From Morinoia aosen (lineage: Eukaryota > Arthropoda > Malacostraca > Amphipoda > Talitridae), in the NCBI GenBank assembly GCA_030386875.1, contig CM059562.1, forward strand, positions 73,840,201 through 73,904,200: 64,000 nucleotides of DNA. Reading direction: 5' to 3'. The position numbers and the translations under genes were made by a program. The notes beneath the pieces are model-generated. The model searched no databases. It saw only the letters and a list, made by a program, of their open reading frames with translations, and had not been told where the DNA came from. Shown piece by piece: positions 27,956-63,220 of the stretch (the stretch's first letter is position 1; each line of letters begins with the position of its first letter).

Positions 27956-28175
27956 TGAATTTTACTTACTTGGTTAAAGTGTTCTTGGAGCTGGACGATG
28001 GGAGCCCCTTTGAGGAAATGACAGATAGCATCATGGTGGAGGATGCTAAGGTCGCCCACCTAGCCCCAGTGCCTGTCCTGGAGAAGGAGGCACCTCACGA
28101 CGGTGGTCTTGACTTAAAGGGCAGCACTCGATCTTTCTTCCCAGAGACCTGGCTCTGGGAGATCGTGATGCTTGC
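27956..28175 (+). CDS. Alternative bait exon 1
   Basis: The exon has 220 nt, phase 1 in, phase 2 out. Acceptor gatgctgttacag; an in-phase alternative lies 24 bases downstream (ggttaaag). Donor gtctgt. The bait is acidic (FLELDDGSPFEEMTDSIMVE) and leads to STRSFFPETWLWEIVMLA, with Phe replacing the usual Tyr of the anchor. It is nearest to the constant exons. Confidence 0.85.
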
Positions 28176-28774
28176 GTCTGTAACCTATCCCTATTTTGTT
28201 TAGATTTAAAGCCTCCTATCCAGTTTTTGCATTGATTTTAAGACGGCTCGCCTTTTGACTTAGGGTTGTATGCGGTAGTTTTTTCGTGCCTCAGACTTCC
28301 AGGTAAATTGCCGTTATTGTTAAACTGGACCTAACGTATTCCTGCAGCTTTTTATTTCGGGGGGGTTCACTCGGTCAGGAGTTCCTTTTACACTTTGATC
28401 TTACATCGGAGCTGTTCTCTCTAATTCCTCTCGTGAAGTAACATTTGTACGTCGAAACAACCATGCAAAACTTTTAATAGGTTGTTATGGTTTTTGGTGA
28501 CAACTTAATGACATTAATGCATTGGGATTATTAGTTGTCATCATTGGTAAATTACCAAAGTATGTGAAAAAAATCGGATGTGAATCACTTATATTAAGCA
28601 TCTTGAACGTTAGCTATCGACAAATTTTATTTTCTATCGTCCATCAAGTATCTCATTGAGAAAATTTCCCCTTCCACACACTATACGTAAGTCAACTTCA
28701 CGGTTTCCACTAGTCAACTTGAAGGCTAAAAAAATCTGACGCGACCTAACTAAAATCGGGTCTTATATTATCAG

Positions 28775-28982
28775 AACCTATTACAGCACCTATCGCAATT
28801 ACGCCGAATGTGGAAGATTTTTCTCTGGAGTCGGTGGCCGTTTCGGGAGATATACTCCCAGTACAACAACAAGGAGCCGTAGATGTGCTTGCGGCACGCC
28901 CAGCAGCAGCCGCGGCAAAGACTGAACTCGACAGTCGTACTTATTTTCCTGAGACTTGGCTTTGGCAGCTCCATACAGTGCC
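28775..28982 (+). CDS. Alternative bait exon 2
   Basis: The exon has 208 nt, phase 1 in, phase 2 out. Acceptor tatattatcag, donor gttagt. It encodes PITAPIAITPNVEDFSLESV, an Ala-rich stretch (AARPAAAAAKTELDSR) and the anchor TYFPETWLWQLHTVP. The single Arg and Lys in the Ala-rich part are likely bait cleavage positions (inference). Confidence 0.9.
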
Positions 28983-29840
28983 GTTAGTATCACCTGTGTT
29001 CAAGTCCGTCTTCACGAACCTACCTTCATCTGTATATTATCTAAACCACTCTTGCCGTCTTCATTCTGTGCTGAGATAGATACTCATAAGAAACAGCTTT
29101 CAAGACTTGTCGGAGTGCTACTTGTGTTTTCATCGTTTTATAGAATTCTTGTATTGGCGTCAAAGGTGACATCTTGTATGGTCATTTTTCTTCGCTGAAA
29201 TAACATTCACTAATCAAAATTCACATGTCTCATTCCTGCGTATTTTGGGTTATTTTGGTCTTTTCTTTCTGTTGAGCTTTCTTTGAAACTTAGCACGTGC
29301 TGCGTAAGTTTTCTTTGCAGCCAAATGTTATCCAAAAATTATATGTACAGTTCAATACAGAGCTTATGCTAACATTTGTTGAACTCCAAGGTTATTTCTT
29401 TACTCTTCCGGGGCGTTGACTTTTTCTTCTCTAAGAGATATCCAATCTTTGGTTTATATTGACATTTAGCCTACATGTCTTTATGCTAATTCAAATTCTA
29501 TTTTTTTGTGGCGATAATATTTTGAACGAAATGATGCGAGTCATCTGAAAGGACCAGCAAATTTTCTTTAGCGTATCTTCCATATATTCTTTATTCTCAT
29601 TGTTTTAAAGCAGGTAAAAATGTGTTGTATAGAATGGGGGTGCTCTGTATCATGCCTGCAATTTATGATAACGCTACTATGAAGCCATGAAAATTTCAGA
29701 TGAAGAAGATAAATGTGCTCCACTTGAGCAGGGTGTGCTAACGTGAAAAAAATAATCATGCGTTCTTTGTTAGCCCAGATGGTGAAATTAGTAAGGGTCT
29801 ATTCAACCTGACTTTATTTACCTCATATGTCATGATCCTG
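28983..29840. other. Intron, nothing recognised
   Basis: AT-rich intron between bait exon 2 and duplicated segment A. Confidence 0.5.
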
Positions 29841-32002
29841 AATATCGTCGCCTCATGCTTTTTTGATCATGCATGTTCCCGAGTATGTCATAGAATTTTG
29901 AAATCGCGGTAATCTTGCGTTTCATTTTTGCATAAGAACGTCACTTATTGAGTTCCATTATGTTCAGTTGGGATTTTTTGTATAAATCCAAAAAAATTCG
30001 AGTCGCTTGTTGCGCCTCATACACGTAAAGCAGGTCGCATCCTTCTTAAATGCTCAGGGGAATAAAACGTATAGCTATTTATTAAATTCTAAGTGCGTAA
30101 ATTACATTAGAATCTCTGAGCGTAAGTGCTCTATTTGCTGAAATGACGTAGGATGCGTTGAAATGCCAGCGACGTCGTGAAACTGCTATCTTTTGCACAT
30201 ATTTCTTAAGCACGATTATCTTATTCAAGTTAGACTTTAAAACCATTAAATCGCACGATTTTTTAAATCTTAGTCGTTAACCTTTATTTTATGTATAGTT
30301 TTTTGTCATAATCAGTACTATCTTCGTTGATCCTAGATTCAGTCTCAGCAAATGCATAACCGAAGATAAAAACATCGTTTCTGATCACTTATTTCTTGCA
30401 GGTTAAAGCTTTTTATCCTACGAGTAGATACAGATAGTAAGTTAAAAATCATTTCATAGAGGATTTTCCCTGTAACGTCTTCTATTCTTGCCCGTTTTCT
30501 ACAATCAGCAGATGAGCTGTCACCTCTCAGTGAAGGTACAGTCTGAGAGTATTCTTTGTCCCTACCACTGCCGTTGAGGGCTTGACAATCTTCTTTTACT
30601 ATTTTAGTTCGGACACTACTATTTGCAACTGAACAAGAGATGCCACGGCTGATCCCATTCTTGGAAATCGCCTTCAATCAAACTACAATTGGCATTAAAG
30701 CGCATGATTCGGATTCATTGACAATGTTAAAGCGAAAAAATACCAAAAATAGTTCCTCCACTCAAAAAATCGAAAAAAGGTTTCGCAGACCAGCTCCATC
30801 ATGAGTTAGTCAACTTTGGTAGCAAACAGTGCTAATTTCACATGTTTAACTTGTTAAAATAAAATGCTCTATTTCATCAATTTTCTGTTTTGACAAATGG
30901 ATGCGTAGAATTGAGAATCGTTTGAGACTTCATTCAATTATACTTTTAATCATACTGATAGAGCAGGCCACAATTTTTTCTATTTAGGTATTTATAACCA
31001 ATTTTTACCTCTACCTTTGCTGTGAGTTTTTTATAAATTTGCAATTTGAAAAATCAGTTGAGAATCGGAATGATTGATCGATGTTGTATGTACGGGAAAA
31101 TGGATTACGATGAGTTTTTATCGCAACGTTTTAAAGCTTTACCCTGAGAGTTTGTCTTCATTGTCCCTCATCATGATACTCGAATGATCTTTGTTTTGAT
31201 TTAGTCGTAGTTCATAATTTCATTGCATCAATAATTATTTCGTAAATAGTTTTTCATTCATGTCAATTTTTTTTAATAATTTGTGGGAACGTAAAAATGG
31301 GAAAAGTGGCCTATAAATCGTGAAGTGACCTCCCATTGTTACCTTTTTCTCAATTTCTTCAAGGTTCTAATTTTTCTTTCTTTTTTGTTACTAACATTGC
31401 TGTAAACTCTCCTGCAAAGTTTTGAAAATTAGAGAAAAAAGTGTACGCTAGAATAAATTGTCCTATGAACCTTCGTTCCAGCTCATGCATAAGTTTTTAT
31501 TTGAGACTTCTCGAGGAATACGAAGGATTCTCAACTTCTTTCTAAAGGCTTGTCAAATCTAAACCAGTTCCTAACTTGCTGCTGACATCAAAGCTGTAGA
31601 CGGGCTTTAGATTATTGGATACACTTCTGATGGATGGGTTCTCCATAGTTTCCGTTGGGAATGATAAGTTGCTCAAAGTTGGCTTTAGGCTCAGAGTTAC
31701 AAGAGATGAAAATGAATTTGATGCAAGAATTCGTGTCCTCTTTTTTAGTAAAGCAGACTTAATATTATATTTCTGCTTTTGCAAAGCCATCCGTTCCATT
31801 ACTTATGCGAATATGTGCTTAAACACCTTCGTGTTCGACGTTTCCTTCCTTTTAATGTTTGTAGTGTGATTTAATCTCTCTCGATTCAAGAAATCATTTC
31901 TTCAGATTGAATTCGTCGTAATTCATAAGTATAGTTGAAGCCATAATAGCAGGAGTTTTTAGCTGAAAATACATCATTTAATGTGACCCGTTTTCTCTGT
32001 AG

Positions 32003-32192
32003 GGAACGTCTTATATAAAGTTGCCGACCGCGGCGCACAAGCCGCCCCCATGGGACCTGTGCTAGAGACCGCCTTCGTACAGATGAGCGCCGCGCCCAAC
32101 CGCGGGTTCTCGGGGGCCGGAAGCGCCGTAACCAATGCCAATCCGCGCGTTTATTTTCCTGAAACTTGGTTGTGGCAGCTCCAGGAAATCCA
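32003..32192 (+). CDS. Alternative bait exon 3 (cassette A)
   Basis: The exon has 190 nt, phase 1 in, phase 2 out. Acceptor gttttctctgtag, donor gttcgt. It encodes NVLYKVADRGAQAAPMGPVL and ends ANPRVYFPETWLWQLQEIQ. Paralogue of exon 6 with the same length. The bait loop differs at five residues (for example PMGPVLET versus PAGPLLGT, RGFSG versus RGYSG) while the anchor is identical. Confidence 0.92.
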
Positions 32193-32617
32193 GTTCGTTT
32201 TCTACTGCTAATTTTGACCATCAGCAACCTTGCTATTCGCAAGATAGATGACGTGACTGCTGGTGACGCTTTTAATGTTTATTGCTAAAGTACTCTCTAA
32301 ACAATCTGTTCGCGTGTCACTAAGTTAGACTGCTAGCATTTCATTGAGTTTATCTTGTGCGCAGCAGAGGTTGCTCATGGTCTGTGGAGTTCATTGTCAG
32401 AGCTGTATTGTTTGAAGCTTGGCTTGCATGCGATAAAATGTCAGTTTTTAACAAGTCTTGTTGTGACTAAAGTTTTGTATTAACTCCTGCTTAGTTGCTG
32501 CAATTCGCCCACACTAACTGATGAGAGAAAACGTGGCACTAGATGCAGTCGTGTTTTTTTATCTCGTGTTAATCTCGCCGCGTCTACTTCAGGCTAATCA
32601 GAGTTTTTCGCCCCTAG

Positions 32618-32645
32618 GCACTATTTTGGCTAGCAGGATAACCAG
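32618..32645 (+). pseudogene. Orphaned 5' part of ancestral bait exon 4
   Basis: The acceptor tttttcgcccctag and following codons (TILASRITS) correspond to the start of exon 7 (SILASRITS). Directly after 'ataaccagc' the homology stops and a 7.2-kb insertion begins. The rest of the ancestral exon resumes at 39908. Confidence 0.85.
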
Positions 32646-35600
32646 CATAGACCGGGGCGGACCACACACACACACACACACAAACAAACACGCACACCGC
32701 AAAACCCCAAACCTTCACACTCTTACACACACTCCCACACAAACACACACACACACATGTAGGGCACACTTTGAAAAATAACCACAATTAGCCAACACAA
32801 CCAGATACACCATCGTCTCAAATCACAAACCGACATGTGCATTGTCTTGCAATTCAATTTATATGTTCAACTTTAAAACACCAACATCAATTCGTTTTAC
32901 AACAAAATACCAAAATAACATTGAAATAACATCATATTTACAGGTCTAAAATCATTTCACCAACCTCTTTTTACGAATAACTCATCCTTACCAAATCAAT
33001 CTGATGGCAAGTTCTATTCAACAATGACTACACCAATCACAATTTATCGAAAAAGAAATCGGTTTACCAATCACACCCGAATCTAACTCAACCTAAACTA
33101 ACCTAACTTAACGCAACCTAAACTAATCTAACCCAACCTAGTCTAATGTAACCTAACTTGAGCTATTTTATACTCACCTGACTTTATAACCAAATGTATC
33201 CTTTTTTTCGTTCCATTTTTGACCACTCTTATTTTATTCCATTTAACTTACCGTCCATCCATTCTTTCTCATCAATGTACCCAAAGTCATTCAAAATATC
33301 CTACTCAGAATGAAATACCTTCACCTAAATCCAAACTTGAAATTACATAAATCCCTAATAAAAAGCGCGACTGCAACTTTCTTTACAATATTCTATACAG
33401 AGTCGCGAAAGAATGACATTTTAAAATTAAATCCCGAATCAACCTAAGGTCGAACATGCTTAAAACCCCATCAGTATGATCGTTCATTCGACCAGAATAC
33501 ATTGAATATTACCTATAACCAATTTCAATTACATGAGCCTCATTCAAAATTTTACTTAAACATCCGGATGTCACGAGAAATGGGCCCTCCTCCTTGTTAA
33601 CACTTCATTAACAAGAAGAACAGGTTCTCGGAATTGAGGGAATGGCGCACCTCCAAGTTACATAAACAACACAAAATTAATGAATAATAATCGGCAATTA
33701 CAGTACATATACTAAAAAGAAAAGGTACTCACTGACGACAGCTGACCCACTTACAACGCGTTTCTGTGCGCATCTGAACTGCTGGAAGGCCTATTGCGAG
33801 GGAATGTATTAATACTGCTTCTAATATTGTGGGGCATGATACACAGGATGAACTATGCTTAACATTTATAATTTTCCAGCGATACGTCATACAAACATTA
33901 CTGAGCGTACACACAATGAATGGTGTTAGGAATGATGCCAATTAAGTAATGGAATCAAATAGCATACGTCAAATGACTTGCATCACATAATTATACTGAA
34001 ATATTGGCTAGCCGGCCGCCGCTAAGTTTACAAGAGTTACACATGAGAATTCATCTATCTTGTCCTATTTCTATCTCAGTTGTTCCAGCAGCACAGTGGG
34101 CAATGGTCACTTCAAACACAAACATTCGTCCGCGACTCGCTTCAGTTCAAAGGACTGCCTTATTCACTGTTCAGAAAATGTAGTGATGACGTTATTTTGC
34201 TTCTTCCGCTTCAGTATATTCACACGTCGATTTCCTTGCATTCGAGCTGATCAATCCTCAGACATATGACTCCGTCCCACCTGGCAAGACAAAATTTTAA
34301 CTTATTAATTATGATAGCACCCATTAAGCTCCCTTAAACCATTTCAATTTTGCATTACTGTATGCCAATAAATTTCAGACAATTTTATAAAAGAAAATCA
34401 TCTTTTCCCAAGAAACGGCTTCGCTCTTACCCTCCCCAGAGACGTTGCGCCTAAGTGTTCCATTAAATGATTCCCACGCTGCAAGTTTAATTTGCTCTTC
34501 TGCAAGTAAAACGAGAAAATGTATGAATTTCATGATCACATTTTGGCGTGAAACTTAGTATAATTTTCAATATACCCAATAACCACTTTTCATTATATCT
34601 ATGAGCACGTTTGTTACAGAGAACACACCCGCGTTTCATTTCTTATACTTCGCGTCGCGGCGTCGGTTGTAGAACTGCCTTTTGTTCATCCCCGATGCCT
34701 AGCGCCTTTTCTTGAGGGTTGTCCTCTGTCTCATATTCGGCCTGTAAGAATCCTCGGACCTTGACTGCGACCGCCTTCCCTCTCTTCTCATTGGTGGTCC
34801 CGCAGCTCGCCTTTATTTTTTCTTATCCTCATTGTTTCTCACGCTCTCACGCTCCAGCCCCTTCGAAAACGACCGTTGGTTTGCCGTCTCTCTCGGCCTG
34901 AGTGTCTCGATTTATGTGTGACTACAAGGCGACTTTGTTTTGCACATGGGTAGGCATTTTTCAGAACGTCTCAAGTTTCCCAAGGGCTCGCCCTAATGAA
35001 AAGATTTGCTAACACTACGAAATCGACCCCTCCAGAAACAACACACAATGTAAACAGACATCTTTTTGGGCTCTCGCATCTTATCGCGGCCTCCTAACAT
35101 TGCTGAGTCAAACATACGGCATAAAAACATACATGTTGAAGCGACCCTCCCGTGCTGCTGGGATTTTCTGAGATATTTCTAAGTAAGCCAAAAATTTATT
35201 ACACACAATTAAAATTTTTACCTAAATCCTCATTTTAATTCGCAAAATTGATTATTCTCAACAGATTCTCGACACGGTTAAAAAATATATGAAATTCTAT
35301 CCAAGCTGTTTGAAATTCCACCAAAGCCAGACGCACGAAAATTAGGCTTCCCGTAACCCACAAAAATTGCCACTTCTCATATCATAATAGATTACTCACT
35401 TTCGTATGAGAGAAATATCCTTTCGTTCTGAAAATTCATTTTAAACCTTCAACAGAAAACGCAAAATATTCACCAAATTTATGACACATCCAATTACTAT
35501 CAATAATTTCTCGAATGAACCCCTAAAACCCAATACTGTATAGATTTGTTTCCACCAATAGAGGATGCGAAAGAGAGTTAAATTTACATACATCAGATGG

Positions 35601-38600
35601 CGTCTCAGTTATTCACGCAGAGCCCTTAAATCAGCAAGCCCTGCTTCAATCTACAACAAAACAATCATTCATCCTCAATCAAATGAAGATCGTCACAAAA
35701 TCAAAATACCATCGCAATACCACATCAAAACGGAAGATAATTCTCATTTCATAAAAAATACATCGCCACCTGTTCATCTTCATTGGGTTACTAATGATGG
35801 GACGCGCCGTCGCGCGGTTAAATTCGAAGGTTGAGAAAATGAAATCTGAGTTCTTGCGCCGCTCTACGGGTGCTACGCACCTCGCAGAGCAGCATAATTG
35901 CAGCTCTTATATTAGTCACACTCGAGGGGCACTGGATTCACCTTAGAAACACTTTCAAACTCTAAAAAATGCCATTTCTGTTTCATTTTTACCCATTTTC
36001 ACCGTAGGACCTACTTACCCCGTGCAGTTCACTAACGGCCTCAAAAATACCTGTCCGCATGGTACTAACATTTTCATTCGCAGCAATTCTCATATGCATC
36101 CTATTTTGCATTGATAATAACATTTTAATATCCGTACACTTTTATCGAACTTCTCCCCAAATTTTCCAAATCCGTGATCATTAGACAGATCGAAATGTCC
36201 AAAATTACTCCAAAAACGGTTCAAAACACGTTCCTAGGACGAAATAACGGCCAAAACATTTCACAAAACTCATTTCCCCATATATCAAGCAACTATGAAT
36301 AAAAATAATTTCCTCACCAACATTCACACCTTGCTTTCGATATTAGGCTTCATTTGAGACCAAAATCAATTCTCTAGGTAATTTAGAAGTACCCTTGATC
36401 GTCCATTTAAACGTGTATTGAATTTTCGCTAATAACTCATTCTCCCAATCATATCGATAGGTCCGTTCTCGAAATGTTAGCAGAAACAAAACTCATAAAG
36501 ATGTACATTGTACCAAATCGACGAACATCTACCTCCAATACACATGATGATATGTCTAATTAAAACTACACTTATTTGCCCACCGAATTCATATATGCAT
36601 CACCAACCGCGTCTCAACATAACGACGCAAGTTCCATGCCATTTTCGACACAACTAAGAGGCATCGGTTACTCGTTCAGTTTGATAATCAATTTTTCTAC
36701 CAGGCAACTTTCATAGTGTATCTTCAAAGAACTGAAAATATGCGCTGCTGGAGCAAAGCTTTGAAGGGTAACTGAACTAATAAATCATGTTGTGCAGTTT
36801 CTCAATATCGAAATCTTTACAGCAAACTATGAAGTAACAACAATGCTTGACATACAAGTGAGTTCTCATTAAAGTTTCATGCAAATTTCGCATCGAACTA
36901 AGTGGAATGAGCGATTTCTCGAATTTATAAATGAATTCATGTTCGCGATTTCAACCCATAAATGTTCAATTTACCTCCAGAAAAACATGAAATCGATCCT
37001 CCTATCAAATTTACTTGCTTGACTGGTTTACACCGCCCAAAAAACTTAGCATCATAATCTGGGTTCGTATGAGAGATTGTCAGGTCTTAATTTCTCAAAA
37101 TGAGGTCTTTCATGATTCATGAACATATCTTTTTCCCTGCGTTACCACAAATTCTCCTCAATACATCACTTTCATGTAGAGGCGTTTACAAAGTCTCTAT
37201 CATTCAATTCAACTCACTACCAACAACTTTCACGGTAGACCTCAAAATTACCGAACATGTACAGCACTAAAGCAAAGCTTCGAGGGCTAAATCAACTAAA
37301 AAATGCTGTTCTTACTTCACTCAATATTTAAGTATATAATGAAAAGATTCGAGTAACAACGAAGCTTGACATACATAAATGAGTTATACATTAATAGAAA
37401 CGAGTTATATCAACAAATAATAACTATTAAGTATCCATCTTGCTTGGTATCCAAGCCATAAGGGCCACGGCAGTCCGCGTCTGTGAGGAGTAATTGGACC
37501 ATCGAATACCCACAACACTTGAAAGTAATGACCTACGAAATGTATAATTTCTCTTTGTATTACGAAATTTGGCGAGTTCTCATCTTTTGAAATTTGCGTA
37601 TCATGTTCATTTTCATTAAACAATATTAAAAACTTCTTTCCAAGTTTCGTTTCATTGTAGAAAGGTGACACTTTTCACTTTTAAGAACTTATATCTTGTT
37701 TTTGTATCTCTTTTCATGAAAACCTGATGTAACAGGTCACTGTCCAAAATTACTGCAGTGTCACAGAAGCATGTGTTCTCCTAACTATGACATTTAATCA
37801 ACAAGTATACCATTTAAATAATTTTCTATCCATTAGAAAGACAATTTTTTTGAGGGTTTACAAATCCATTCAAAAAATCAGTTATAATTGAAGTCACTTT
37901 ACTTACTTAGTACGATGATGCGGACACTTTACCATTAGTTGTAACATCTTTGTAGTTGTAAAAACATTTACATTACAACTTGTACAAGCAGCAGAAGATT
38001 TGAGCCTCAAATTCTGAACCTCATTGAGATATTGCAATTGGAAATCGCCATGGATCGCAATTTTCTCGACTTAGGAAAAAATTTGTTGAGGAACCAAAAT
38101 TTTTTTTCTGTACCAAAACTTGTTGGAGGTAAAATAATTCTACCATAAGGTAAATCGCATATTTTCAACACATTTGTTCTCTATAAAATTTCCTGTGAAA
38201 GCAATATAAACCCTTGAAATTAATGAATTACGCGTCATGTAACAAAGTTTTAAGAATTTCAAGGCGAAAAAAGCCAGTTACAACGTTGACTTGCGAGTTA
38301 CAATAAATTTTTATCAACTTCAACACAGTCAAACTCTCAAAAATGCGCAAAACCCCCTCAAATGGGCAAAAATTGAAAAAACTTTGAACTTCAACAAATC
38401 CTTCAAATATATTTTTTCGCACTCAAAAACATAACACCAAGTTCATGATGATCCACATCGATATATAACCTTTAAACTCAATAAAGTTTCATTTCAGGCC
38501 ATAAATTTAGTCATTAAAAAAATTCAGATTCCGGAGACTTCAACTAGAGGTGGATCATTACCTACTTTTGCGTTAGATCGCCCCATTTTACCCGATTTCT

Positions 38601-39884
38601 TCCTCATGTTCGAGGTTTTTTCAAATATAAACAAAAAGTTGAAGGCCTAGAACTTTGAGACAGGTATCAATCGAAAGATCTCCTCAAGACGCATCTTTCA
38701 AGAGCTTTTCAACTCCCTCGAAGGTGAGGAAGTGGGCTTCAGGGGTGTAGGAAAGTCAAAAATGGCCTGGAAAAATGAAAATAATCTCACGTTCAAACGG
38801 AGCCGAAATTCGAACAGGCAAACAGTTATGGTATGTACGAAGAAAAAACAATCAAAAAGTGTTGAATAAAGTTTTTCGTGGGTCGCACCCATTTCCGTCA
38901 AAAGTGGTTGAGGGAATTTTTCGTGATTTTATAGGTTTCGTTTGAGATAATTTCTTGAGAAAACCATCGGTCATCATGATCTCTGAACTTGATAACTTTG
39001 AGAAAAAGAAAACAACTAGGACGTATCGAATTTTCAAGTCACCACTCGATCAAACAACGCCACAACTGGCGGCCAAAAATGACATTTGAAAAAACGCATT
39101 TTTTTACCTCAACTTTAAAGTTGCACAAATGGTAAACTTTCCAAGCAAACACTCTATAATTTTTGTTTTGAGTCCTACCAACCTTTTTGAACGAGTCCCC
39201 AACGTTTGAGAGCCCCAGGTATTGCCGTCGAAAATCAGGACAAAACTTAAACCTCACCTAAATTTTTGAAAATTTCGAGGAAAACTTTGACCCAAAGTGG
39301 TGTCGAAACTTGATCGTTTCGAGAGCCGTTGATTTTATGACGGTTAGAACTTTTGGAAACCTATGAGCTATCAAAGTTTGAATGCGCAAAAATGCGTGGT
39401 TCTCTCAAAATAAATTTCCAAATTTCGTCAAAAATACCCCAAAAATTTTTACTCAACTTTGAGGGCAAAAAGGGATACTTTTTACGAACGTATCGCAAAA
39501 TGGCAACTTTGGCGCATACTCCGTTTTTTCAGCTACCACATTCTGAAATTAGAGCCGCCTAAAGGCATTCTATGGGTGTTTGGCAGCAGTTTGAAAATGT
39601 GCCATTTCGGTCGATTTTCGACCTTTGAACCGCCATTGAAGGAAAAGTTGTCGCACGATCGAGATAAAAAACCCTAGGGGTAATATAAAGAAACAGTTTT
39701 ATCTGCCTGCCAAATTTTAAGGCGCTGCGACGACGCGTTTGAGTGGCTACCCTATAAATAGACGACATCAAAGTAAGGTACAGTCCTTCGGTGATCGCCA
39801 GCGCGGCCCCTAGGGTAAGTGGTGATCATTTTTCTTCTAATCTGTGCGCGTATGTGTCTTGGTTTTTTCACCGGATTTTCGCAG
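32646..39884. mobile_element. 7.2-kb insertion splitting bait exon 4
   Basis: Foreign to the cassette, since copy B is uninterrupted at this point. It opens with a CA-rich microsatellite (32668-32760) and has a degenerate CCTAA-rich stretch (33085-33165). The plus strand is A/C-rich over most of its length, whereas flanking introns are T-rich, as if inserted antisense. No transposase, reverse transcriptase or other family ORF was recognised and no clear terminal repeats found, so its class is unknown. Homology to copy B resumes at about 39908; the stretch 39885-39907 is also insert-derived and now coding. Confidence 0.75.
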
Positions 39885-40086
39885 TAAGGTTCGCCGCGCG
39901 CACAGAACCTCCTGCCTCCCCGATGAAACCGGAAATTCTCCAAGCTCGTCCATCTAACCCCTCTGAAGCTTCATTTGATCGCGTAATAACTGATGATGAG
40001 ACAGGAATTGGAGGAAACACGCAGTCTCGAGCCAAGCCGCGTGTGTACTTCCCGGAAACCTGGCTGTGGCAACTCCAATACGTCCC
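39885..40086 (+). CDS. Alternative bait exon 4 (cassette A), with a replacement acceptor
   Basis: The exon has 202 nt, phase 1 in, phase 2 out. Acceptor tttttcaccggattttcgcag, donor gtttgt. The first residues VRFAARTE come from the inserted DNA; from PPASPMKPEILQA onward it matches exon 7, ending KPRVYFPETWLWQLQYVP. A second in-phase acceptor (gcgcgcacag, start 39906) is weaker. The insertion thus removed the old acceptor and supplied a new one in the correct phase. Relative to exon 7 the bait carries about nine substitutions. Confidence 0.85.
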
Positions 40087-41134
40087 GTTTGTATTCCTGT
40101 GAACGTATACTCATTAATTGGTTCCTTCTTTTGCTCAATTTGATGATTGAATGTTTCGCGGTTTTAGTCATTCGCTGTGCCAGTTGTCGAAGTAGGTTTA
40201 TTGGTTCCTCAACGAGATGTATACAAATACTTTTGCTATTATAACTTCCTTTTTGCTTCTGTTCTTCATTAAGTTAATCATCTAAGTGTTCACCTCGTAG
40301 CGATTCGGGATTACCTGCGTGCTTGGAATTGATTTTTAAGCTTTCTAATTTTTCACCAATTAACTTTAAGGCTAGCTGCTTGTTTCTTTCATGACGCTAT
40401 TGTTTTTATTTTTCAGGAATGCTTTTGATCACGGCATTACTAACGATGTCGTTATTCTTAATTTAAATGTTACATAGCGTTTTCGTTTTCATTGATTAAT
40501 GCAGTATTCAAATTTAATCATTCAACAGGCTAGTGCAGATTTGTTCATCAGAGCGTGGATCATCTACTAATTGATACCATTACATCACGTCGCACTTGTG
40601 CAGTTTCACGCAAGCTTCTGCTAAATAAGAAATTTCGCTCAGCCGCCCAGAAATATTAAATATCTGTTGAATGAGTTGAAATTGGGGTTTCATGAGATAT
40701 AGCTACAAAATGCATCAGCCGCCAACAGTCGGTCCTTCTCATGTGAATTACCTTTATGCTTTCTCTCTCAACAAAACATGAACGCCCCATCGGCTGTAAT
40801 TCTATAACATCAAGGAAACCGAACTTACCGATATGATATCATTCCATTCTAAATTTTCAGAACCCTTTAGATCGTCATGTGTAACCGGAGCGTAGAGAAA
40901 ATGCGTTGTTTTACCGAAGACTTGAAAAAAATGAACGAAAAAGAACGATTGGGCTTCTTAGTTTTGGGGTCCCAGTAAGATCTATTTCGATCGAGTATCA
41001 AAAGCCTCCAAAACCTCGAAATGACTTCTGTGTTGGACGTCTATGTTTTGAACTCACGAGCGTCAAATCGAGTGAATACTGCTATGCAACTACTACCTTA
41101 AAATGCCCTTCATTCGTAAATTTATTTCTTGTAG
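40087..41134. other. Intron between bait exons 4 and 5, duplicated in copy B
   Basis: Homologous to 49247-50314 with roughly 85-90% identity by eye. No other features recognised. Confidence 0.7.
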
Positions 41135-41435
41135 AATTTAATACGAATACGGAAGTGTGTTCGGAAATAGGATTTCCAGTACAGTACATCAAGTTTTCAC
41201 ATCTGTGCGTTGAAGGCTGCCCTATGTGCGGAGTCATCGGAGGAGGATTTGCAGCGGGAATGCCAGCAGGAATGCCGGGAATGCCAGCCCCTACCGCAGT
41301 TCAACCAGAAGTAGTCTTCACTAACTTCGCGGCGGCAGGGCCGCCTACGGGTGGCGGTGCGGCAGCAGAAGACGCCGAGACACAACCGCGGACTTATTTC
41401 CCCGAGACTTGGCTGTGGGAGATCTACTCCGTTGC
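41135..41435 (+). CDS. Alternative bait exon 5 (cassette A)
   Basis: The exon has 301 nt, phase 1 in, phase 2 out, if the strong acceptor tttatttcttgtag is used. Weaker in-phase acceptors would start it at 41180 or 41216. Donor gtcagt. It has four cysteines (VCSEIGFPVQYIKFSHLCVE, then GCPMC), a Gly/Met repeat (AAGMPAGMPGMPAPT) and the anchor PRTYFPETWLWEIYSVA. Cysteines are unusual in a bait region. Paralogue of exon 8, in which this acceptor is mutated. The 3' half is certain; the start is not. Confidence 0.8.
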
Positions 41436-42180
41436 GTCAGTAGCCTGATTGTGTTGCACGTGTTCACGTGACGGGACTCGATGCGGCGTACAAATTCTGG
41501 CAGCACTAGTCTCTTCATTAACGCTTGTTAGCGATGTTCGCTGGATTGCTTGGTTACTTACGCCTCTTGAAATAACTGATGGTCTATCATGAGCACTTCA
41601 TTTTCATGTATCATGCTCTCGTTTCACTTTCTATAAAGCACTGGATAGAGTTTTTGCACAGATTATCATAGTCGTAATATCTGTTATGTGTTGTTACGTG
41701 GCAAATGCAGCTCGTGGTCACTGCTACAGGTTCGAGCGTTTTGTATCGCGCTCGCGTCCGTTGGTCTTGGGAACATGTCTTGTGGGGACTAGTTTTTTCA
41801 ATATATACTTTTTTCCTTTTCAGCCACTGTCATATTTCACTTGCTATGCTGCTAGCCTGTGGTAAGGTGCACAAATTCCAAGATGAACCACACGTTATTA
41901 TCCAAAATGATGCTTCATTGCTACCTACCGTGTGCTTAATTTGAAATATTTTCATGTGCAGAAGAGTCAATCTAAATTTCCAGTAAGGTATAATTGAACA
42001 AATTAGTCTGGAGCAATCTGCTTAACTATCATGACTAAGTAATTACCTCCATGAACTGTTAAAGTGAACGAAATTCAAAAAATTAACATAATTTATAAAA
42101 CTTGTCCTAACATAAATATTACTTTGGGATTTCAGTGAGCGATTTGTTATTTTCTTCAGCCTTGAGAGCTCTTCTGGAGA

Positions 42181-42895
42181 TCCCCTCAGGGGGATACAAG
42201 TATTGCATCTATGGGAATTAGTGCTCCCAGGGGGGCTATATAAGGGCCTGAGATAAAGGTTAGGTAGGCTTTCTTTTTGTTAAAATTGAATAGGTTTTTG
42301 TTTAGTTACGGACCATCTTTTTTCGGTTCACTGCTGTCCTGTTTTTCAGCACCTACTACTTTCTTCTTCAAATTTTTCTTGTTTCTTTATCTTTTTACAT
42401 TCAGGGGTATACAACTATTGTATCTATGGGAATTAGCGCTCCCAGGGGGACTATGTGAGGGCCCGAGCTGAGAGTTAGATAGGCCTTTTCTTTGTTGAAA
42501 TAAAATGTTTTTGTTATGTTAAGAACCACCTTTTTTCGGTTCACTGCTGTCCTGTTCTTCAGCTCCTACTACTTTCTTCTTGAACTTTGATCTTGTTTCA
42601 TAATCTTCTTTCACAACTTACTGTTTCTATGCCCTTTCTGCGTAGATTCCGCGTTTTCTAAACTCCATACTTAATGATGCCTTCCTCCTTCCTCTCTTTG
42701 GATCGCATTTGTTGCTGGGTAGGGAGGCTAAAACTAACGACTAATCTAATTTTTTCTTAGCTTTCTGTTTCTGTGCCTTTTCTGCATAGATTCCGCGTTT
42801 CTTTAACTCCATACTAAATGGTGCCTTTTTCCTTCCTCTCTTTGGATAGCCTTTGTTGCGGATACGGAGGCTTAAACTAGCTAATAATAATAATC
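42181..42895 (+). repeat. SINE-like repeat cluster (three partial copies)
   Basis: A 3'-truncated copy (42181-42410) runs into a fuller copy (42410-42745). A 3' fragment (42755-42895) follows, ending gaggcttaaactagctaata. Landmarks: tcagggggatacaagtat, gctcccaggggg, ttttttcggttcactgctgt. All have the gene's orientation. The first two are mirrored at 51341-51839 in copy B. Confidence 0.85.
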
Positions 42896-45005: not shown

Positions 45006-45019
45006 CGTACAAATGCCGA

Positions 45020-45610: not shown

Positions 45611-45611
45611 A

Positions 45612-48404: not shown

Positions 48405-48594
48405 GGAACGTCTTATATAAAGTTGCCGACCGCGGCGCACAAGCCGCCCCCGCGGGTCCTCTGTTAGGGACCGCCTTCGTACAGATGAGCGCCGCGCCCA
48501 ACCGCGGGTACTCGGGGGCCGGAAGCGCCGTAACCGATGCCAATCCGCGCGTTTATTTTCCTGAAACTTGGTTGTGGCAGCTCCAGGAAATCCA
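48405..48594 (+). CDS. Alternative bait exon 6 (cassette B)
   Basis: The exon has 190 nt, phase 1 in, phase 2 out. Acceptor gttttctctgtag, donor gttcgt, both identical to exon 3. It encodes NVLYKVADRGAQAAPAGPLL and ends ANPRVYFPETWLWQLQEIQ. Against exon 3 I count six non-synonymous and two synonymous base changes, all in the bait. Confidence 0.92.
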
Positions 48595-49032
48595 GTTCGT
48601 TCTCTATTGCTAATTTTGACCATCAGCAACCTTGCTATTCGCAAGATAGATGACGTGACTGCTGGTGATGCTTGTAGAGTTTATAGCTAAAGTGCTTTCT
48701 AAACAATCTGTTCGCGTGTCACTTAGTTAGACTGCTAGCATTTCATGGAGTTTATCTTGTGCGCAGCAGAGGTTGCTCATGGTCAGTGGAGTTCATTGCC
48801 AGAAGCTGTATTGTTTGAAGCTTGGCTTGCATGCGATAAAATGTCAGTTTTTTAACAAGTCTTGTTGTGACTAAAGTTTTGTTTTAACTCCTGCATATTT
48901 GCTGCATTTCACCCACACTAACTGAAGAGAGAAAACGTGGCACTTGACGCAGTCGGGACTTCTTATTTCGTGTTACCCTCGCCCCCTTGCCACTGCGTCG
49001 ACTTCAGGCTAATCAGAGTTTTTCGCCCCTAG

Positions 49033-49246
49033 GCTCTATTTTGGCTAGCAGGATAACCAGCCGTTTGCCTCCTGCCTCCCCGATGAAACCGGAAATTCTC
49101 CAAGCTCGTCCATCTCCCTCCTCTGGAGCTGCATTTGATCGCGTAATAACTGGTGATGAGACAGGAATTACAGGAGACACGCAGGCCCAGGCCAAGCCGC
49201 GCGTGTACTTCCCGGAAACTTGGCTGTGGCAGCTTCAATATGTCCC
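49033..49246 (+). CDS. Alternative bait exon 7 (cassette B)
   Basis: The exon has 214 nt, phase 1 in, phase 2 out. Acceptor agtttttcgcccctag, donor gtttgt. It starts [20 protein letters not shown] and ends KPRVYFPETWLWQLQYVP. It represents the uninterrupted ancestral structure of exon 4. The bait differs from exon 4 at about nine sites (PSPSSGAAFD versus PSNPSEASFD). Confidence 0.92.
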
Positions 49247-50314
49247 GTTTGTATTCCTGTGCTCGTACTCATCGGTTCTTTCTTCTGCTCAATTTGATAA
49301 TTGGATGTTTCGCGGTTTTTAGCCATTCGCTGTACCAGTTGTAAGAGTAGGTCTATTGGTTCCTCAACGAGATGCACTTTTGCCATTTTAACTTCCTTTT
49401 TGCTTTTGTTCTTCATTGAGTAAGTTAATTATCATCTAAGTGTTCACCTCATCGCGATTCGTGATAACCTGCGTGCTTGGAATGGATTTTTAAGCTTTCT
49501 AATTTTGTACCAATTAATTTCAAGCCTAGCTGCTTGTTTCTTTCTTGGTGCTACTGTTTTTATTTTTTCAGGTATGCTCTTGATCACGGCATTACTAACG
49601 ATGTTTTTATTATTAATTTAAATGTTACATCGTGTAGTCGATTAATGCAGTGTTCAAATTTAATAATTTGGAGCCTAGTGCAGATTTTTTCATCAGACTG
49701 TGGATTATCAACCATTTGATAATGTTTCATCGCGTCGCACTCGTGCAGTTCCAGGCAAACTTTCGCAAAAGAAGAAATTTCGCTCCGTCGCTCAGAAATA
49801 TTAAATATCTGTTGAGTGAGTTGAAATTGGGGTTTCATGAGAAATGGCTACAAAATGCATCAGCCGCCAACAGTCGGTCCTTCTCATGGGAATTATCTTC
49901 ATGTTTTCTTCCTGAACGAAACATGAACGCTCCTTCGACTGTCTATCTACATCTGGGAAACCAAACTTTCCGCTATGATTTCATTCCATTCTAAATTTCG
50001 CAACTTTTTTGATGGTCATATCTAACTAGAGCGTAGAAAAACACGCCTAGTTTTACCGAAAACTTGAACAAATAAATGAAAATGAATTCTCTGTTTGTAT
50101 TTCTCAGTTTCGGGTCCCAGTAAGAACTATTTCGAGCGAAGATTTTTGATCGAAGATCGAAAGCTTCCAAATCTCTGAAATAGCACTGCTGTGTTGGACG
50201 TGTATATGTTTTGGATTCACGAGCATCAAATTGAGCAAATACTTCTATTTGCAAATACTACCTTAAAAATGCTCTTCATTCGTAAATTTATTTCTTGTGG
50301 GAGTAAATACGAAG

Positions 50315-50600
50315 CGTGTTCGGAAATTGGATTTCCAGTAAAGTACATCAAGTTTTCACATCTGTGCGTTGAAGGCTGCCCTATGTGCTTTGGGGGTGGA
50401 GGCTTCGGAGGAGGATTTGCAGCGGGAATGCCAGCAGGAATGCCGGGAATGCCAGCCCCTACAGCAGTTCAACCAGAAGTCTTCGCTACCTCCTCGGCGG
50501 CAGGGCCGCCTATGGGTGGTGGTGCGGCAGCAGAAGACGCGGAGACACAACCGCGGACTTATTTCCCCGAGACTTGGCTGTGGGAGATCTACTCCGTTGC
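50315..50600 (+). CDS. Alternative bait exon 8 (cassette B), start uncertain
   Basis: Paralogue of exon 5; donor gtcagt. The strong acceptor of exon 5 (tttcttgtag) reads tttcttgtgg here and is lost. In-phase replacements are taaatacgaag (start 50315), ggatttccag (50339) and gcgttgaag (50375); all give lengths of 3n+1. Content: four cysteines (CSEIGFPVKYIKFSHLCVEG, CPMC), a Gly run (FGGGGFGGGFAAGMPAG) and the anchor PRTYFPETWLWEIYSVA. It may be less efficiently spliced than exon 5. Confidence 0.75.
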
Positions 50601-51340
50601 GTCAGTAGCCTGATTGTGTTGCACGTGTTCACGTGACGGGACTCGATGCGGCGTACAAATTCTGGCAGCACTAGTCTCTTCATTAACGCTTGTTAGCGAT
50701 GTTCGCTGGATTGCTTGGTTACTTACGCCTCTTGAAATAACTGATGGTCTATCATGAGCACTTCATTTTCATGTATCATGCTCTCGTTTCACTTTCTATA
50801 AAGCACTGGATAAAGTTTTTGCACAGATTATCATAGTCGTAATATCTGTTATGTGTTGTTACGTGGCAAATGCAGCTCGTGGTGACTGCTACAGGTTCGA
50901 GCGTTTTGTATCGCGCTCGCGTCCGTTGGTCTTGGGAACATGTCTTGTGGTGAATAGTTTTTTCAATATATACTTTTTTCCTTTTCAGCCACTGTCATAT
51001 TTCACTTGCTATGCTGCTAGCCTATGGTAAGGTGCACAAATTCCAAGATGAACCACACGTTATTATCCAAAATGATGCTTCATTGCTACCTACCGTGTGC
51101 TTAATTTGAAATATTTTCATGTGCAGAAGAGTCAACCTAAATTTCCAGTAAGGTATAATTGAACAAATTAGTCTGAAGCAATCTGCTTAACTATCATGAC
51201 TAAGTAATTACCTCCATGAACTGTTAAAATGAACGAAATTCAAAAAATTAACATAATTTATAAAACTTGTCCTAGCATAAATATTACTTTGGGATTTCAG
51301 TGAGCGATTTTTTATTTTCTTCAGCCTTGAGAGCTCTTCT

Positions 51341-51839
51341 GGAGTTCCCCTCAGGGGGATACAAGTATTGTATCTATGGGAATTAGCGCTCCCAGGGGGG
51401 CTATGTAAGGGCCTGAGATAAAGGTTAGGTAGGCTTTCTTTTTGTTGAAATTGAATAGGTTTTTGTTAAGTTACGGACCATCTTTTTTCGGTTCACTGCT
51501 GTCCTGTTTTTCAGCACCTACTACTTTCTTCTTCAAATTTTTCTTGTTTCTTTATCTTTTTACCCTCAGGGGTATACAACTATTGTATCTATGGGAATTA
51601 GCGCTCCCAGGGGGACTATGTGAGGGCCCGAGCTGAGAGTTAGGTAGGCCTTCTCTTTGTTGAAATAAAATGTTTTTGTAATGTTAAGAACCACCTTTTT
51701 TCGGTTCACTGCTGTCCTGTTTTTCAGCTCCTACTACTTTCTTCTTGAACTTTGATCTTGTTTCATAATCTTCTTTCACAACTTACTGTTTCTATGCCCC
51801 TTCTGCGTAGATTCCGCGTTTTCTAAACTCAATACTTAA
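51341..51839 (+). repeat. SINE-like repeat pair in cassette B
   Basis: Counterpart of 42181-42680. The second copy is interrupted at its TTAA by the 1665-bp transposon and resumes at 53505. Confidence 0.88.
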
Positions 51840-54385: not shown

Positions 54386-54714
54386 CATTCTCTCAGCCGT
54401 GTGTTTAAGACAGGATTCATCTTCTCTGGTTGACTATGAAAGATCATGATTGAAAGGTAAACGATTTTTCCCCATTCTCGTACAAATGTGTTCAATAGTC
54501 TTTAGCCAGCCCAGCTTCAAAGTTAATCTTCTAGAATGTAAACGTATAATCTATGGCATGAACCCTAATTCATTGAATTTAGTTTCACGGTTCCCCCAAA
54601 TTCTTCAACTCATAAATAGTTACTACTTTTACGGTATGAATGTTGCGAATGCGATTTTATCTGCAATCGAGAAGATCGACTCTCGAAACACGTGTCGTCT
54701 GCCAAATGTTGCAG

Positions 54715-54817
54715 ATCAACCGATAGCCCTGCCTCTGTCCTCATTGGCTGCCAGACATGTGGGTGCCCCGCGATCGCATTTCCCTGAGACGTGGCTCTGG
54801 CAACTACTTCCAATACT
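54715..54817 (+). CDS. Alternative bait exon 9 (short)
   Basis: The exon has 103 nt, phase 1 in, phase 2 out. Acceptor cgtctgccaaatgttgcag, donor gttcgt. With only 33 full codons it is half the size of the others: DQPIALPLSSLAARHVGAPR then SHFPETWLWQLLPIL, with His instead of Tyr in the anchor. A longer exon from an in-phase acceptor near 54576 (cattgaatttag) is possible but weaker. Confidence 0.8.
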
Positions 54818-56222: not shown

Positions 56223-56427
56223 GTTGGCATGGAAGTGGAGGAGCCGTGTATCCAGATTACTATGACGTGATGGAGGCAGCTGAAGTAGACATGGACTTCG
56301 TAGCACCTATGGCTCCTCCTGACCAGCCGGATTCTGTTCGGAAGAAAGGAGGACCTGCTGCCAGTGAAGAGCATGATTCTCGCACCTACTTCCCGGAGAC
56401 TTGGCTCTGGCAACTTGCATCCGTGGC
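56223..56427 (+). CDS. Alternative bait exon 10
   Basis: The exon has 205 nt, phase 1 in, phase 2 out. Acceptor cgtgtcctggtgcag, donor gttagt. It encodes WHGSGGAVYPDYYDVMEAAE, an acidic stretch, a dibasic site (DSVRKKGGPAAS) and SRTYFPETWLWQLASVA. The RKK cluster in the middle of the bait suggests a target for trypsin-like enzymes (inference). Confidence 0.92.
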
Positions 56428-58716: not shown

Positions 58717-58917
58717 CCCTAGAGCAAGGATTCTCAACTTTTTTTTGGCCCGCACCTCTGAAAAAATTTTATTCGAACCTCGTACCCACTGAAACAAAAG
58801 TTCAAACATACAGCCAGTATCTTAATATTTATCTGGATATTTCTCGCGCCCCTTGGAATATCGTCTCTCACCCCGAGGCGGGTGCGAACACCCCTGGTTA
58901 GGAACCCTTCCCAAGAG
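58717..58917. mobile_element. 185-bp hAT-like MITE
   Basis: The element spans 58725-58909. The left end caaggattctcaactttttt pairs with the reverse complement of the right end (aagggttcctaacc). Flanks ccctagag and cccaagag match at 7 of 8 bases, fitting the 8-bp duplication of hAT elements. It ends 64 bp upstream of bait exon 11. Confidence 0.7.
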
Positions 58918-58972
58918 GTCTAATGAAGAGCATAACTTATGCATGATACTGAAACGGTTTACATGTACTCAG

Positions 58973-59180
58973 TACCTCATGGTGTACTGTGGGCATCTGC
59001 GATTGGAACTCGACCTCCGTCTCTGACACCCATGAGAGGAACCTTCCTCAGCACCACCGCACTTCCCATCACGTCCGTAGCACCTCAAGCGATCATCCTC
59101 TCCGATGGTGGGAGAAAGCCCGCACAGGAAACCCGAACGTATTTTCCAGAAACTTGGTTGTGGTCGATCACGTCAGTTGC
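58973..59180 (+). CDS. Alternative bait exon 11
   Basis: The exon has 208 nt, phase 1 in, phase 2 out. Acceptor gtttacatgtactcag. The donor gtgagt is the only full-consensus donor in the set. It encodes PHGVLWASAIGTRPPSLTPM, then STTALPITSVAPQAIILSDG and ETRTYFPETWLWSITSVA, where Ser-Ile replaces the usual Gln-Leu or Glu-Ile after the anchor. Confidence 0.88.
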
Positions 59181-60616: not shown

Positions 60617-61045
60617 TGATTATGTATGGGAATCAGCGATCTCAGGGGTAAATGTATAGTCTTAATCTGGAAGTTAGGTAGGCTTTGATTTTGTAGAAAT
60701 AGAATAAAAAATTTTATTTTGTTGTAGACCATCTTTTTCCGGTTCACTGGTACTTTCTTAAATTTTTATTTTGTTTCAAAAACTTACTTCCTTACTCGCT
60801 TTTCCTTTACCCAGGAGATTTTGTGTGGGGAATGCATCTTATGCATAGATTCCCGGTTCTTTTCAACTCCATACTAAATTGAGCTTTCCTCTCAGTGAAT
60901 AATGAGTAATTTATTATTTATTTAATTTATTTATTTTTCAATTTATTAAGTTGTAAAGTAATTTATTATTTAATTGATTAAGCCATCCTAACCCCAACAA
61001 ACCTTTGTTGGGGTTAGGGTGGCTTAAACTAACTTATCTAATCTT
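60617..61045 (+). repeat. SINE-like repeat, diverged, with internal AT insertion
   Basis: 'tatgtatgggaatcagcgat', 'ccatctttttccggttcact', 'tccatactaaatt' and 'gttagggtggcttaaactaa' mark the family. A run of ttatttaatttatt lies inside. Confidence 0.75.
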
Positions 61046-61261
61046 CTGATTATGTACTCAAAAGAGCTAGTGCTATGAGACATTCTACGCTGGACAAAGT
61101 ATATTCCTACAGAGAACTGAGTCCTAAAAATAATTATAAGTACACGCTGTGTACATATAGCAGCGGACTGCTGCTGAAGTTGATTTGCTGGTTTGGCTGT
61201 TTGTTTTGAGTAGATTGTTGGACTTCCAATAGGATAATTGCGAACTTTTATGATCCCGAGT

Positions 61262-61640
61262 TCCCCTCAGGGGGATACAACTATTGTATCTATGGGAATT
61301 AGCGCTCCCAGGGGAAAAATGTGAGGGCCCGAGCTGAGAGTTAGGTAGGCCTTCTTTTTGTTGAAATAAAAATTTTTTTGTTATGTTAGGGACCAACTTT
61401 TTTCGGTTCACTACTGTCCTGTTTTTCAGCACCTCTGACTTTCTTCTTCAACTTTTATTCTTATTTCATGAACTTCTTTCCCATCTTACTGTTTCTATGC
61501 CCCTTCTGCATAGATTCCTCATTTTCTTATCTCCATACTAAATGGTGCCTTCCTCCTTCCTCTCTTCGATACGCTCTATTTTTGCAGCGGTTAGGGAGGC
61601 TTAAACTAACTTATAATCTAATCTAATCTGATCCCGAGTT
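61262..61640 (+). repeat. SINE-like repeat, reference copy
   Basis: A complete-looking member: head cccctcagggggatacaact (containing the palindrome cccctcagggg), body with ttttttcggttcactactgt, end gttagggaggcttaaactaa, tail 'cttataatctaatctaatct'. The pentamer tail suggests a retroposed element. I see no clear tRNA-derived promoter boxes and no coding capacity. Confidence 0.9.
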
Positions 61641-62129
61641 CCCTTCTTTTCTAATCTTAAAATGAAAGGCGAAGCTTGTGATACGCATTCTTTTAATTGA
61701 CAAAGATCAGCAGACTACTTCAATGTTGCCAGCGGAGCATTTAAAGTTTACGCTACATTAAGTTTACGCTTCATATCAAACACGGGCTGTGTCTTATATT
61801 TTAAGAAAATACTGCAACCTCGAGTGGAGAATTGATTTCAAAAATTTGGATGTTGAAACCCTCGCTGTAGGTTGAGGTTACGAATAAACTTGGTTGAAAT
61901 TTTCATGCGCGCTCACCGAGTCGTATACTACTCATCCTGCAGTGCATTGTCAATTGTCATTATTATCAATACTGAATTCACTTCCTTTAACTCATGGAGA
62001 ATGTGCGGCAATTATTTGGGGATGAGAAGTGTGGCCTTTGGGAACTCGATAACACTCCTGAATATCGTTTACTGTTTTCCGCATTCCCCTTTTATACGAT
62101 ATTAGTATAAAAAAAGTTTTTGACGACGT

Positions 62130-62475
62130 AGGTGCAATTCCTAGGACACTCTCAAGGGCGGATGTGTGAGTTCTCGAGCTAATAGTTAAGTTGGTTTTCT
62201 ATTGTTGAAATAGAATAGATTTTTTACTGTGTTACGGACCATATTTTTGTATTTATTTTTTGATTCTCTGCTGTCCTGGTTTTCAACACCTACTACTTTC
62301 TTCTTCAATTTTATCTCGTTTAATAACTTTTCTTAACTTACAATTTCTCTGCACTTTGTGCATAGGTTCTGCATTCCCTGAAGTCCTTATTTAATGGTGC
62401 CTTCTTCTTTACTCCTTGTGAAACGCCTTTGTTGCGGTTCTAACTTCCTTAATTTGAATCTAGGGCCCTCCTGTA
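62130..62475 (+). repeat. SINE-like repeat, diverged copy
   Basis: Recognised by 'ttgttgaaatagaatagatt', 'gctgtcctggttttcaacac', 'tactactttcttcttcaa' and 'atttaatggtgccttcttc'. Same orientation. Confidence 0.7.
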
Positions 62476-62739
62476 TGACGCGTTACCACGCTGCAATAAG
62501 GAACATTTATAGCTCTGAGTTTGCTTTGTGCTTTGAAGATTGCCGCTGCGAGACCCATAGTAGTATTATTTGCACTGTACGATTTCATCATAAAGGGTTA
62601 CTATGGGTTTGTTTGTATTAGTAATATAGTTGAGTTTTTGTAGCTCCATTTGAAGGATTAACTTATCGGATGACCAGCATAGCTTTATTTGTTGCATCAA
62701 TTTTATCTGACTGTTGCTGCAGCTCTTTTTTTGAACCAG

Positions 62740-63010
62740 CAGTCTGGTCTCAGAGTTCCAATAGCTCTCTGAACCATTACTCTGATCCAGGAGTTCCAGT
62801 AGCTCACTCAACCATCAGCCTGATCCTGGAGTTCAAGTAGCTCTCTGATCCAGGAGTTCCAGTAGCTCTGTCTGAACCATCAGTCTGGTCCAGGGGCTTC
62901 AGTAGCTCTGTCTGAACCATCAGTCTGGTCCAGAAGTTACAGTAGTTCTGTCTGAACCATCAGTCTGGTCCAGAAGTTACAGTAGCTCTGTTTGAACCAT
63001 CAGTTTGGTC
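62740..63010 (+). repeat. Tandem repeat copying the exon 12 acceptor
   Basis: Six to seven units of about 40 bp: gtctgaaccatcag|tctggt, then ccagaagttacagtagctct. The last unit ends tttgaaccatcag|tttggt, the predicted acceptor of exon 12. Most upstream units keep the AG. Confidence 0.88.
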
Positions 63011-63220
63011 CCGGGCTTATGGCCGATCCTTCAGCAGCGCTCGAAGTGGCTTCATGTTGGGTGCGCCCATGTATGACGATATGATGATGTCGTCCTCCAT
63101 GGACTCAATGAATAGGATCTCAGCACCATCACCTTTTGAACCGCCCATCCTTCGTCGCGTCATCACGCCCGCTCCTCGGGTCTACTTTCCCGATACCTGG
63201 CTGTGGCAACTCGTCATCGT
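63004..63220 (+). CDS. Alternative bait exon 12
   Basis: The exon has 217 nt, phase 1 in, phase 2 out. Acceptor tttgaaccatcag (last unit of a tandem repeat), donor gtatgc. It starts WSRAYGRSFSSARSGFMLGA, then a Met/Ser-rich bait (MYDDMMMSSSMDSMNRI) and RRVITPAPRVYFPDTWLWQL. Asp replaces Glu in the anchor, and the exon ends one codon earlier than the others. Its donor is also of a different form, so it may be the oldest or most distinct member. Confidence 0.88.

Follow-up and report, generated by a model that had tools for sequence, protein, structure and literature searches.

The bait-exon array

The stretch of DNA described here (64,000 nt; referred to as the window) derives from the talitrid amphipod Morinoia aosen (contig CM059562.1, abbreviated C7, positions 73840201-73904200, with array coordinates counted from window position 1) and contains a predicted alpha-2-macroglobulin (A2M) gene that runs on beyond its end. 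The bait region of A2M is the stretch that proteases cut, springing the trap, and in this gene it is represented by an array of twelve different exons. These were recognized by a common anchor motif, [YFH]FP[ED]TWLW, which occurs exactly 12 times in the window, always on the forward strand, at positions 28135, 28942, 32152, 40046, 41395, 48554, 49206, 50560, 54777, 56387, 59140 and 63183 (bait exons 1 to 12, respectively). Looser motifs, searched on either strand of a 144-kb region that reaches from 20 kb before the window to window +80 kb, returned the identical 12 anchors and no 13th. Across the genome (1.99 Gb), a degenerate DNA pattern for the anchor gave 24 matches, 12 of them in the array and none between the last anchor of the window and C7:81.52 Mb, while the pattern read backwards gave 0 matches. 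The absence of a 13th anchor in these wider searches shows that the array ends within the window; an earlier sequence-only reading of this DNA had suggested that it may continue beyond position 64000, a suggestion refuted within the 80 kb covered. Three of the 12 matches elsewhere (paralogues B, C and D, see below) were examined in the DNA, the other nine being taken from the pattern search alone.

The anchors all follow an open reading frame of 55-170 codons (median 75.5); in the control frames the medians are 19.5 and 20 (remaining sense frames) and 42.5, 27.5 and 0 (antisense frames). When nine independent exons were compared with 18 control runs from the other sense frames, the difference in open-frame length was significant (Mann-Whitney p 2.7e-5). 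Within the anchor, synonymous sites are saturated (proportion of differences, pS, 0.93) and amino-acid sites are nearly fixed (pN 0.036), giving a pooled pN/pS of 0.039 over 63 pairs, these being the 66 possible pairs minus three recent duplicate pairs. The baits proper lie N-terminal of the anchor and comprise 49-73 residues with the acceptors chosen here; most are unalignable, with only five of 66 pairs aligning better than shuffled sequence (z > 3), three of these being the recent duplicates. A phase-2 GT is located at exactly anchor+41 in 11 of the 12 bait exons and at +38 in exon 12, with the caveat that eight of the 12 carry another phase-2 GT at +20. Twelve coding bait exons on the forward strand, beyond chance expectation, are thereby confirmed, as had been proposed from the sequence alone (12 exons with differing baits and a common anchor, spread over 35 kb).

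Exon m (27109..27172; AAGVHAISDLTMETRPCRRHY), the common exon directly preceding the array, ends in phase 1 at ACG/GTGAGA (slash, exon end). Bait exon 1 (27956..28175) has two possible acceptors, at 27955 and 27979, both of phase 1. It is followed by exon 2 (28775..28982, predicted start), exon 3 (32003..32192), exon 4 in its spliceable form (39885..40086), exon 5 (41180..41435), exon 6 (48405..48594), exon 7 (49033..49246) and exon 8 (50339..50600), among which 3 and 6, 4 and 7, and 5 and 8 are duplicate partners. Exon 9 (54583..54817, with 54715 also possible as its start), exon 10 (56223..56427) and exon 11 (58973..59180) come next, exon 11 possessing the best of the 12 assigned donors (GC/GTGAGT). 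The array ends with exon 12 (63004..63220; anchor YFPDTWLW), upstream of which a 40-bp tandem repeat is present. Baits 5 and 8 would each contain three cysteines (HLCVEGCPMC), provided that their predicted starts hold.

A single A2M gene

Probes for constitutive exons, 14 from paralogue C and 19 from paralogue D, each found a single match in the 144 kb (33/33, E 0.001). These matches are collinear from 2429 to 76041 and none falls within 27200-65400, the probes having been taken from stretches already matching the locus, such that the test covers uniqueness and order rather than discovery. Close to the array there is one post-bait A2M exon (C7:73905719; start 65518 in window coordinates, phase 2) and one set of thioester-domain exons (C7:73911972-73914777). 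The claim that the bait exons belong to one A2M gene is upheld by this exon content, on which separate genes or transcripts for the individual bait exons are rejected, as there is a single set of common exons with none inside the array.

The exon pieces assembled, spanning 2423 to 76041, begin with the first recognized constitutive exon (2423..2542, forward strand), with further ones on this strand starting near 5171, 7490, 8204, 8577, 9530, 11810, 15661, 22123, 23372 and 24310. Beyond the window lie the thioester exon (71775-71948 in window coordinates; LIRMPSGCGEQNM), which encodes the thioester motif GCGEQ (as GCGEQN), and the last recognized piece of the gene, ending at 76041. Pfam analysis of the joined pieces with bait 3 identified MG2, MG3, A2M_BRD, A2M (8.3e-20) and TED_complement (2.2e-78) above cut-off, with MG4 under cut-off; the MG, A2M and thioester domains follow one another in the expected order. 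For 206 residues around the bait, phmmer analysis against solved structures gave A2ML1 (3.1e-21) and A2M (4e-21) as best hits, with CD109 (3.5e-15), C3 (2.3e-12) and TEP1 (7.8e-8) lower. On these similarities the locus is predicted to be one alpha-2-macroglobulin gene, of the A2M subfamily rather than of CD109, C3 or TEP.

Paralogous regions B (C7:53.00 Mb), C (C7:81.97 Mb) and D (C16:56.85 Mb) contain one anchor each, together with their own exon sets and a single bait exon. Some A2M-family loci of this genome occur twice, on C7 at 81.97/82.97 and 82.07/83.08 Mb (an offset of ~1.0 Mb) and on C8 at 62.2-62.4/67.9-68.1 Mb, some of them in mirror order; these look like segmental or false duplications. 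A possible further exon of the gene at 25967-26329 contains a Pro/Glu-rich stretch and a furin-like RRKRS site. This is perhaps the place at which the chain is cut into two, by analogy with the tick A2M as drawn in PMC7962413.

Reading frame and exclusive inclusion

The introns around the array differ in phase, being of phase 1 before the bait exon (end of exon m) and of phase 2 after it (start of the post-bait exon). Combinations of up to four bait exons were joined in silico to the common exons, using the donors at anchor+41 (11 exons) and +38 (exon 12) and, for exon 1, the acceptor at 27979. Each of the 12 bait exons, when included singly, gives an open, in-frame product. Skipping of the bait exon (0/1), pairs (0/66) and triples (0/220) are neither open nor in frame, and quadruples all return to frame (495/495) with none being open (0/495). 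Acceptors were picked among in-frame candidates, which by itself fixes the exon lengths at 1 mod 3; the frame loss on skipping and in pairs and triples results from phases 1 and 2 themselves, regardless of which in-frame acceptor is taken. It is strongly supported by this arrangement that an open transcript would contain exactly one bait exon, forced by frame, in agreement with the interchangeable exons envisaged by the sequence-only reading. The single-bait paralogues B, C and D have the same phases, with a phase-1 donor at the position of exon m. The phase asymmetry therefore appears to predate the array, and tandem copies of the bait exon would have been exclusive at once.

Duplication history and the split of exon 4

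Two duplicated blocks were identified in the array: 29844-32646 with 46282-49061 (87% alike) and 39908-42674 with 49068-51839 (90% alike). They yield the bait exon pairs 3/6, 4/7 and 5/8 and bear out the cassette duplication that had been proposed. The blocks adjoin in the second copy and are 7.3 kb apart in the first, where the gap consists of a nest of dispersed repeats (32640..39907, forward strand, left boundary uncertain by ~7 bases). Among the best 40 scored matches at each edge, 39 of the 39 other long ones listed start at 32639-32640 on the left, while on the right 26 of 39 end at 39907 and the rest at 39902-39915. The left flank retains the old acceptor of exon 4 (CCCCTAG) and its first 22-29 bases as a stranded 5' remnant on the forward strand (32618..32646), which matches the start of exon 7. 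Blocks separated by a repeat nest, with this remnant on its left flank, thus indicate that exon 4 was split by the insertion, and the twelve bait exons are not all equal, as they had been taken to be. A phase-1 acceptor is present in the repeat end (TTTTCGCAG, ending 39884), and the spliceable form of exon 4 takes this acceptor and its first 23 bases from within the repeat end. A usable exon 4 could consequently still be made; equally, the exon may be dead. Exons 4 and 7 show 18 differences in 59 codons, compared with 8 in 62 and 11 in 83 for the other two pairs, as expected if exon 4 were less constrained.

For exons 9 and 12, the two searched, no second copy was found genome-wide. A repeat of ~215-390 bp is present in the array introns at 42.2, 42.4, 45.9, 51.3, 51.6, 54.0, 57.2, 61.2 (61243-61629) and 62.2 kb. 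It was considered as a shared control element and rejected, being a genome-wide repeat with at least 40 near-full-length places, including this one (best 40 of 1266 candidates).

Other repeats and features

An intron of the A2M gene harbours, on the reverse strand at 17176-21675, a non-long-terminal-repeat retrotransposon with an 834-aa frame containing endonuclease and reverse transcriptase domains, and lying between frames of 165 and 281 aa. Long minisatellites were found at 2600-3209 (24-bp x 25), 9743-10906 (30-bp x 39), 12270-15659 (32-bp x 106) and 43205-45006 (13-bp x 134), abutting exon edges at 9743 and 15659. Elsewhere in the assembly, contigs C26 and C27 carry intronless, bacterial-looking A2M-family frames of 1293-2232 aa and several stop-free COX1 frames; C27 also carries a copy of the host repeat found in the exon 4 insertion, and both contigs look mixed. 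There are 17 hemocyanin matches in the genome, 15 of which are located in two clusters. One piece is far more similar to the crustacean hemocyanins 1hc1 and 6l8s (E 1.3e-131 and 3e-131) than to the next-ranking 3ixv and 1lla of chelicerates (9.6e-62 and 5.9e-55), which most likely points to a crustacean rather than a tick or fly as the source, and the mitochondrial COX1 has an amphipod-like appearance.

Functional array or relics

One possibility is that the array consists mostly of relics, with one or few bait exons used and the others decaying as duplicates. Several observations weigh in this direction and against an array in working use. A 7.3-kb repeat interrupts exon 4, a break of a kind seen in none of the other 11 bait exons. 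Some acceptors are poor, and several are uncertain (exons 1, 5, 8, 9 and 12), all having been chosen among in-frame ones. With a generic 5' splice-site matrix, the donors assigned in the array scored poorly (median -0.4), and the highest score within 54 bases of each was -1.6 to 3.8. Random spans did at least as well (median best 1.2), and the best donor close to the ends of constitutive exons reached 7.1. Finally, the recent duplicate pairs have pN/pS values of ~0.93, 0.51 and 0.88, without excess amino-acid change, so the constraint since duplication would have been only modest. There is likewise no sign in these values of positive selection on the recent pairs. Indels with lengths divisible by three, in comparisons of the duplicate exons, were dropped as evidence because the exons had been aligned by codon.

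Against decay stand the 12 open frames, the anchor conserved despite saturated synonymous sites, and the GT retained at exactly anchor+41 in 11 of the 12 exons. In pairs 3/6 and 5/8, moreover, the exons differ by substitutions at 4.3% and 4.4%, whereas three of the neighbouring intron stretches reach 10.2%, 6.4% and 12.8%; the remaining one, downstream of 5/8, lies lower at 1.9%. Paralogues B and C, with a single bait exon, possess a similarly weak donor (CCC/GTCAGT), so donor weakness looks ancestral. For the same reason, weak donors were set aside as a mark of regulation, and they give no clear word against use either. Taken together, an array made up mostly of relics is considered unlikely.

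Exon choice and RNA pairing

In some large mutually exclusive clusters, among them those of the Dscam literature, exon choice is driven by selectors, one beside each exon, that compete for RNA pairing with a single docking site, and a choice of this kind could be imagined for the bait exons. Candidate docking windows were taken from the first and last introns of the array and paired with 500 bases on either side of nine of the 12 exons. Upstream of the exons, the lowest mean for a real window was -25.5 kcal/mol, slightly beyond the best value of each of five shuffles (-23.0 to -25.0 kcal/mol); the window concerned (64014), however, also ranks first or close to first in the shuffles, and its pairing therefore looks unspecific. 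The downstream value (-25.2 kcal/mol) is inside the shuffle range of -23.9 to -26.1 kcal/mol. No convincing signal of docking-site pairing was thus obtained for these nine exons in the first and last array introns, a test that a distant or structured docking site would escape, and no known structured RNAs were found in 20000-64000 at Rfam gathering scores. Choice by such pairing is judged rather improbable here, slightly more so than an array of relics.

An assembly artefact, merging bait exons of several paralogues or haplotypes into a single locus, could be suggested by the doubled A2M-family loci (~1.0-Mb offset or mirror order) and the 87-90% likeness of the cassette blocks, but is highly improbable given that the three paralogues examined each keep their own exon set with one bait exon, that six of the 12 baits lack a close partner, that array self-matches of at least 150 bases outside the cassette blocks can be traced to the dispersed repeat or to a single local tandem repeat, and that exons 9 and 12 have no second copy.

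Comparison with known systems

The sequence-only reading had held that only smaller sets of bait variants are known, which is contradicted by BgTEP2 of Biomphalaria glabrata. For this gene, 12 mutually exclusive exons in 30 kb are described, with 12 variants recovered from transcriptomes (PMC7016707). Like the present array, BgTEP2 has tandem exclusive exons at a bait-equivalent place, variable in length and composition and with some strongly conserved C-terminal residues (PMC7016707). It differs in being an insect-type TEP of a snail, the transcripts of which have been seen, whereas the locus described here is an arthropod A2M spread over 35 kb, read from genomic DNA, with one exon split.

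Among arthropod A2M proteins with bait variants generated by alternative splicing, as is predicted here, IrAM of Ixodes ricinus has seven variants and TAM of Ornithodoros moubata has four (PMC5438962, PMC7962413), fewer than in the present array. A2M-2 of Fenneropenaeus chinensis, a crustacean A2M as here, is cited with six variants at the bait, half as many (PMC7016707). The same source cites six mutually exclusive exons and seven isoforms for CfTEP of Chlamys farreri and five isoforms for Drosophila TEP2; these also have alternative exons at a bait-like region but are TEPs with smaller sets. In open-licence PMC literature, surveyed mostly by title, no A2M in the strict sense was recognized in which the bait variants exceed seven, with hilsa shad, for which 12 A2M isoforms are reported (PMC6650032), as a possible exception. 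The Parhyale genome paper mentions five TEPs, and the words 'macroglobulin' and 'bait' do not occur in its main text. Bait-variant splicing, and even a 12-exon array, is therefore already known, and this locus adds one case.

In insects, Dscam is an Ig protein in which four clusters of exons are combined to give thousands of forms. The likening of the bait array to Dscam stands as an analogy; it does not extend further, as the array is a single cluster in a protease trap, giving at most 12 forms with no combinations, and the nine exons examined gave no convincing signal of docking-selector pairing.

Interpretation

The best explanation of these observations, and one that is very probably correct, is a single crustacean A2M gene in which the bait exon has been duplicated in tandem to 12 copies, with one bait per working mRNA; one copy would later have been split by a repeat. 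In a working mRNA, exon m (27109-27172) would be followed by exactly one bait exon, itself spliced to the exon at 65518, and products other than single inclusions would presumably be lost as frameshifted messages. The cell would transcribe and use most of the 11 bait exons other than exon 4, and each isoform would have its own protease spectrum, the bait being the stretch cut by proteases. This reading of the splicing is strongly supported by the anatomy of the locus; the function assigned to it is inferred, and the kind of system is one already known.

A more far-reaching proposal, which we put forward tentatively and consider doubtful as a whole, is that this locus holds more bait exons than any other true A2M and acts as a frame-locked selector. 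Copies would be exclusive from birth, owing to the asymmetric phases of the ancestral exon, and each duplication would supply a new trap. Repeats would disrupt some exons and provide others with splice sites, as for exon 4, which would survive on the acceptor in the repeat end, and the choice of isoform would shift by tissue or infection to match the proteases encountered.

If the bait exons are used as proposed, one blood protein would be tuned to about a dozen protease classes without new genes. The array stands beside single-bait paralogues in the same genome, which makes it a clean case of the passage from an asymmetric exon to an exclusive array. That a snail BgTEP2 and a crustacean A2M have both arrived at 12 exons invites a test of convergence.

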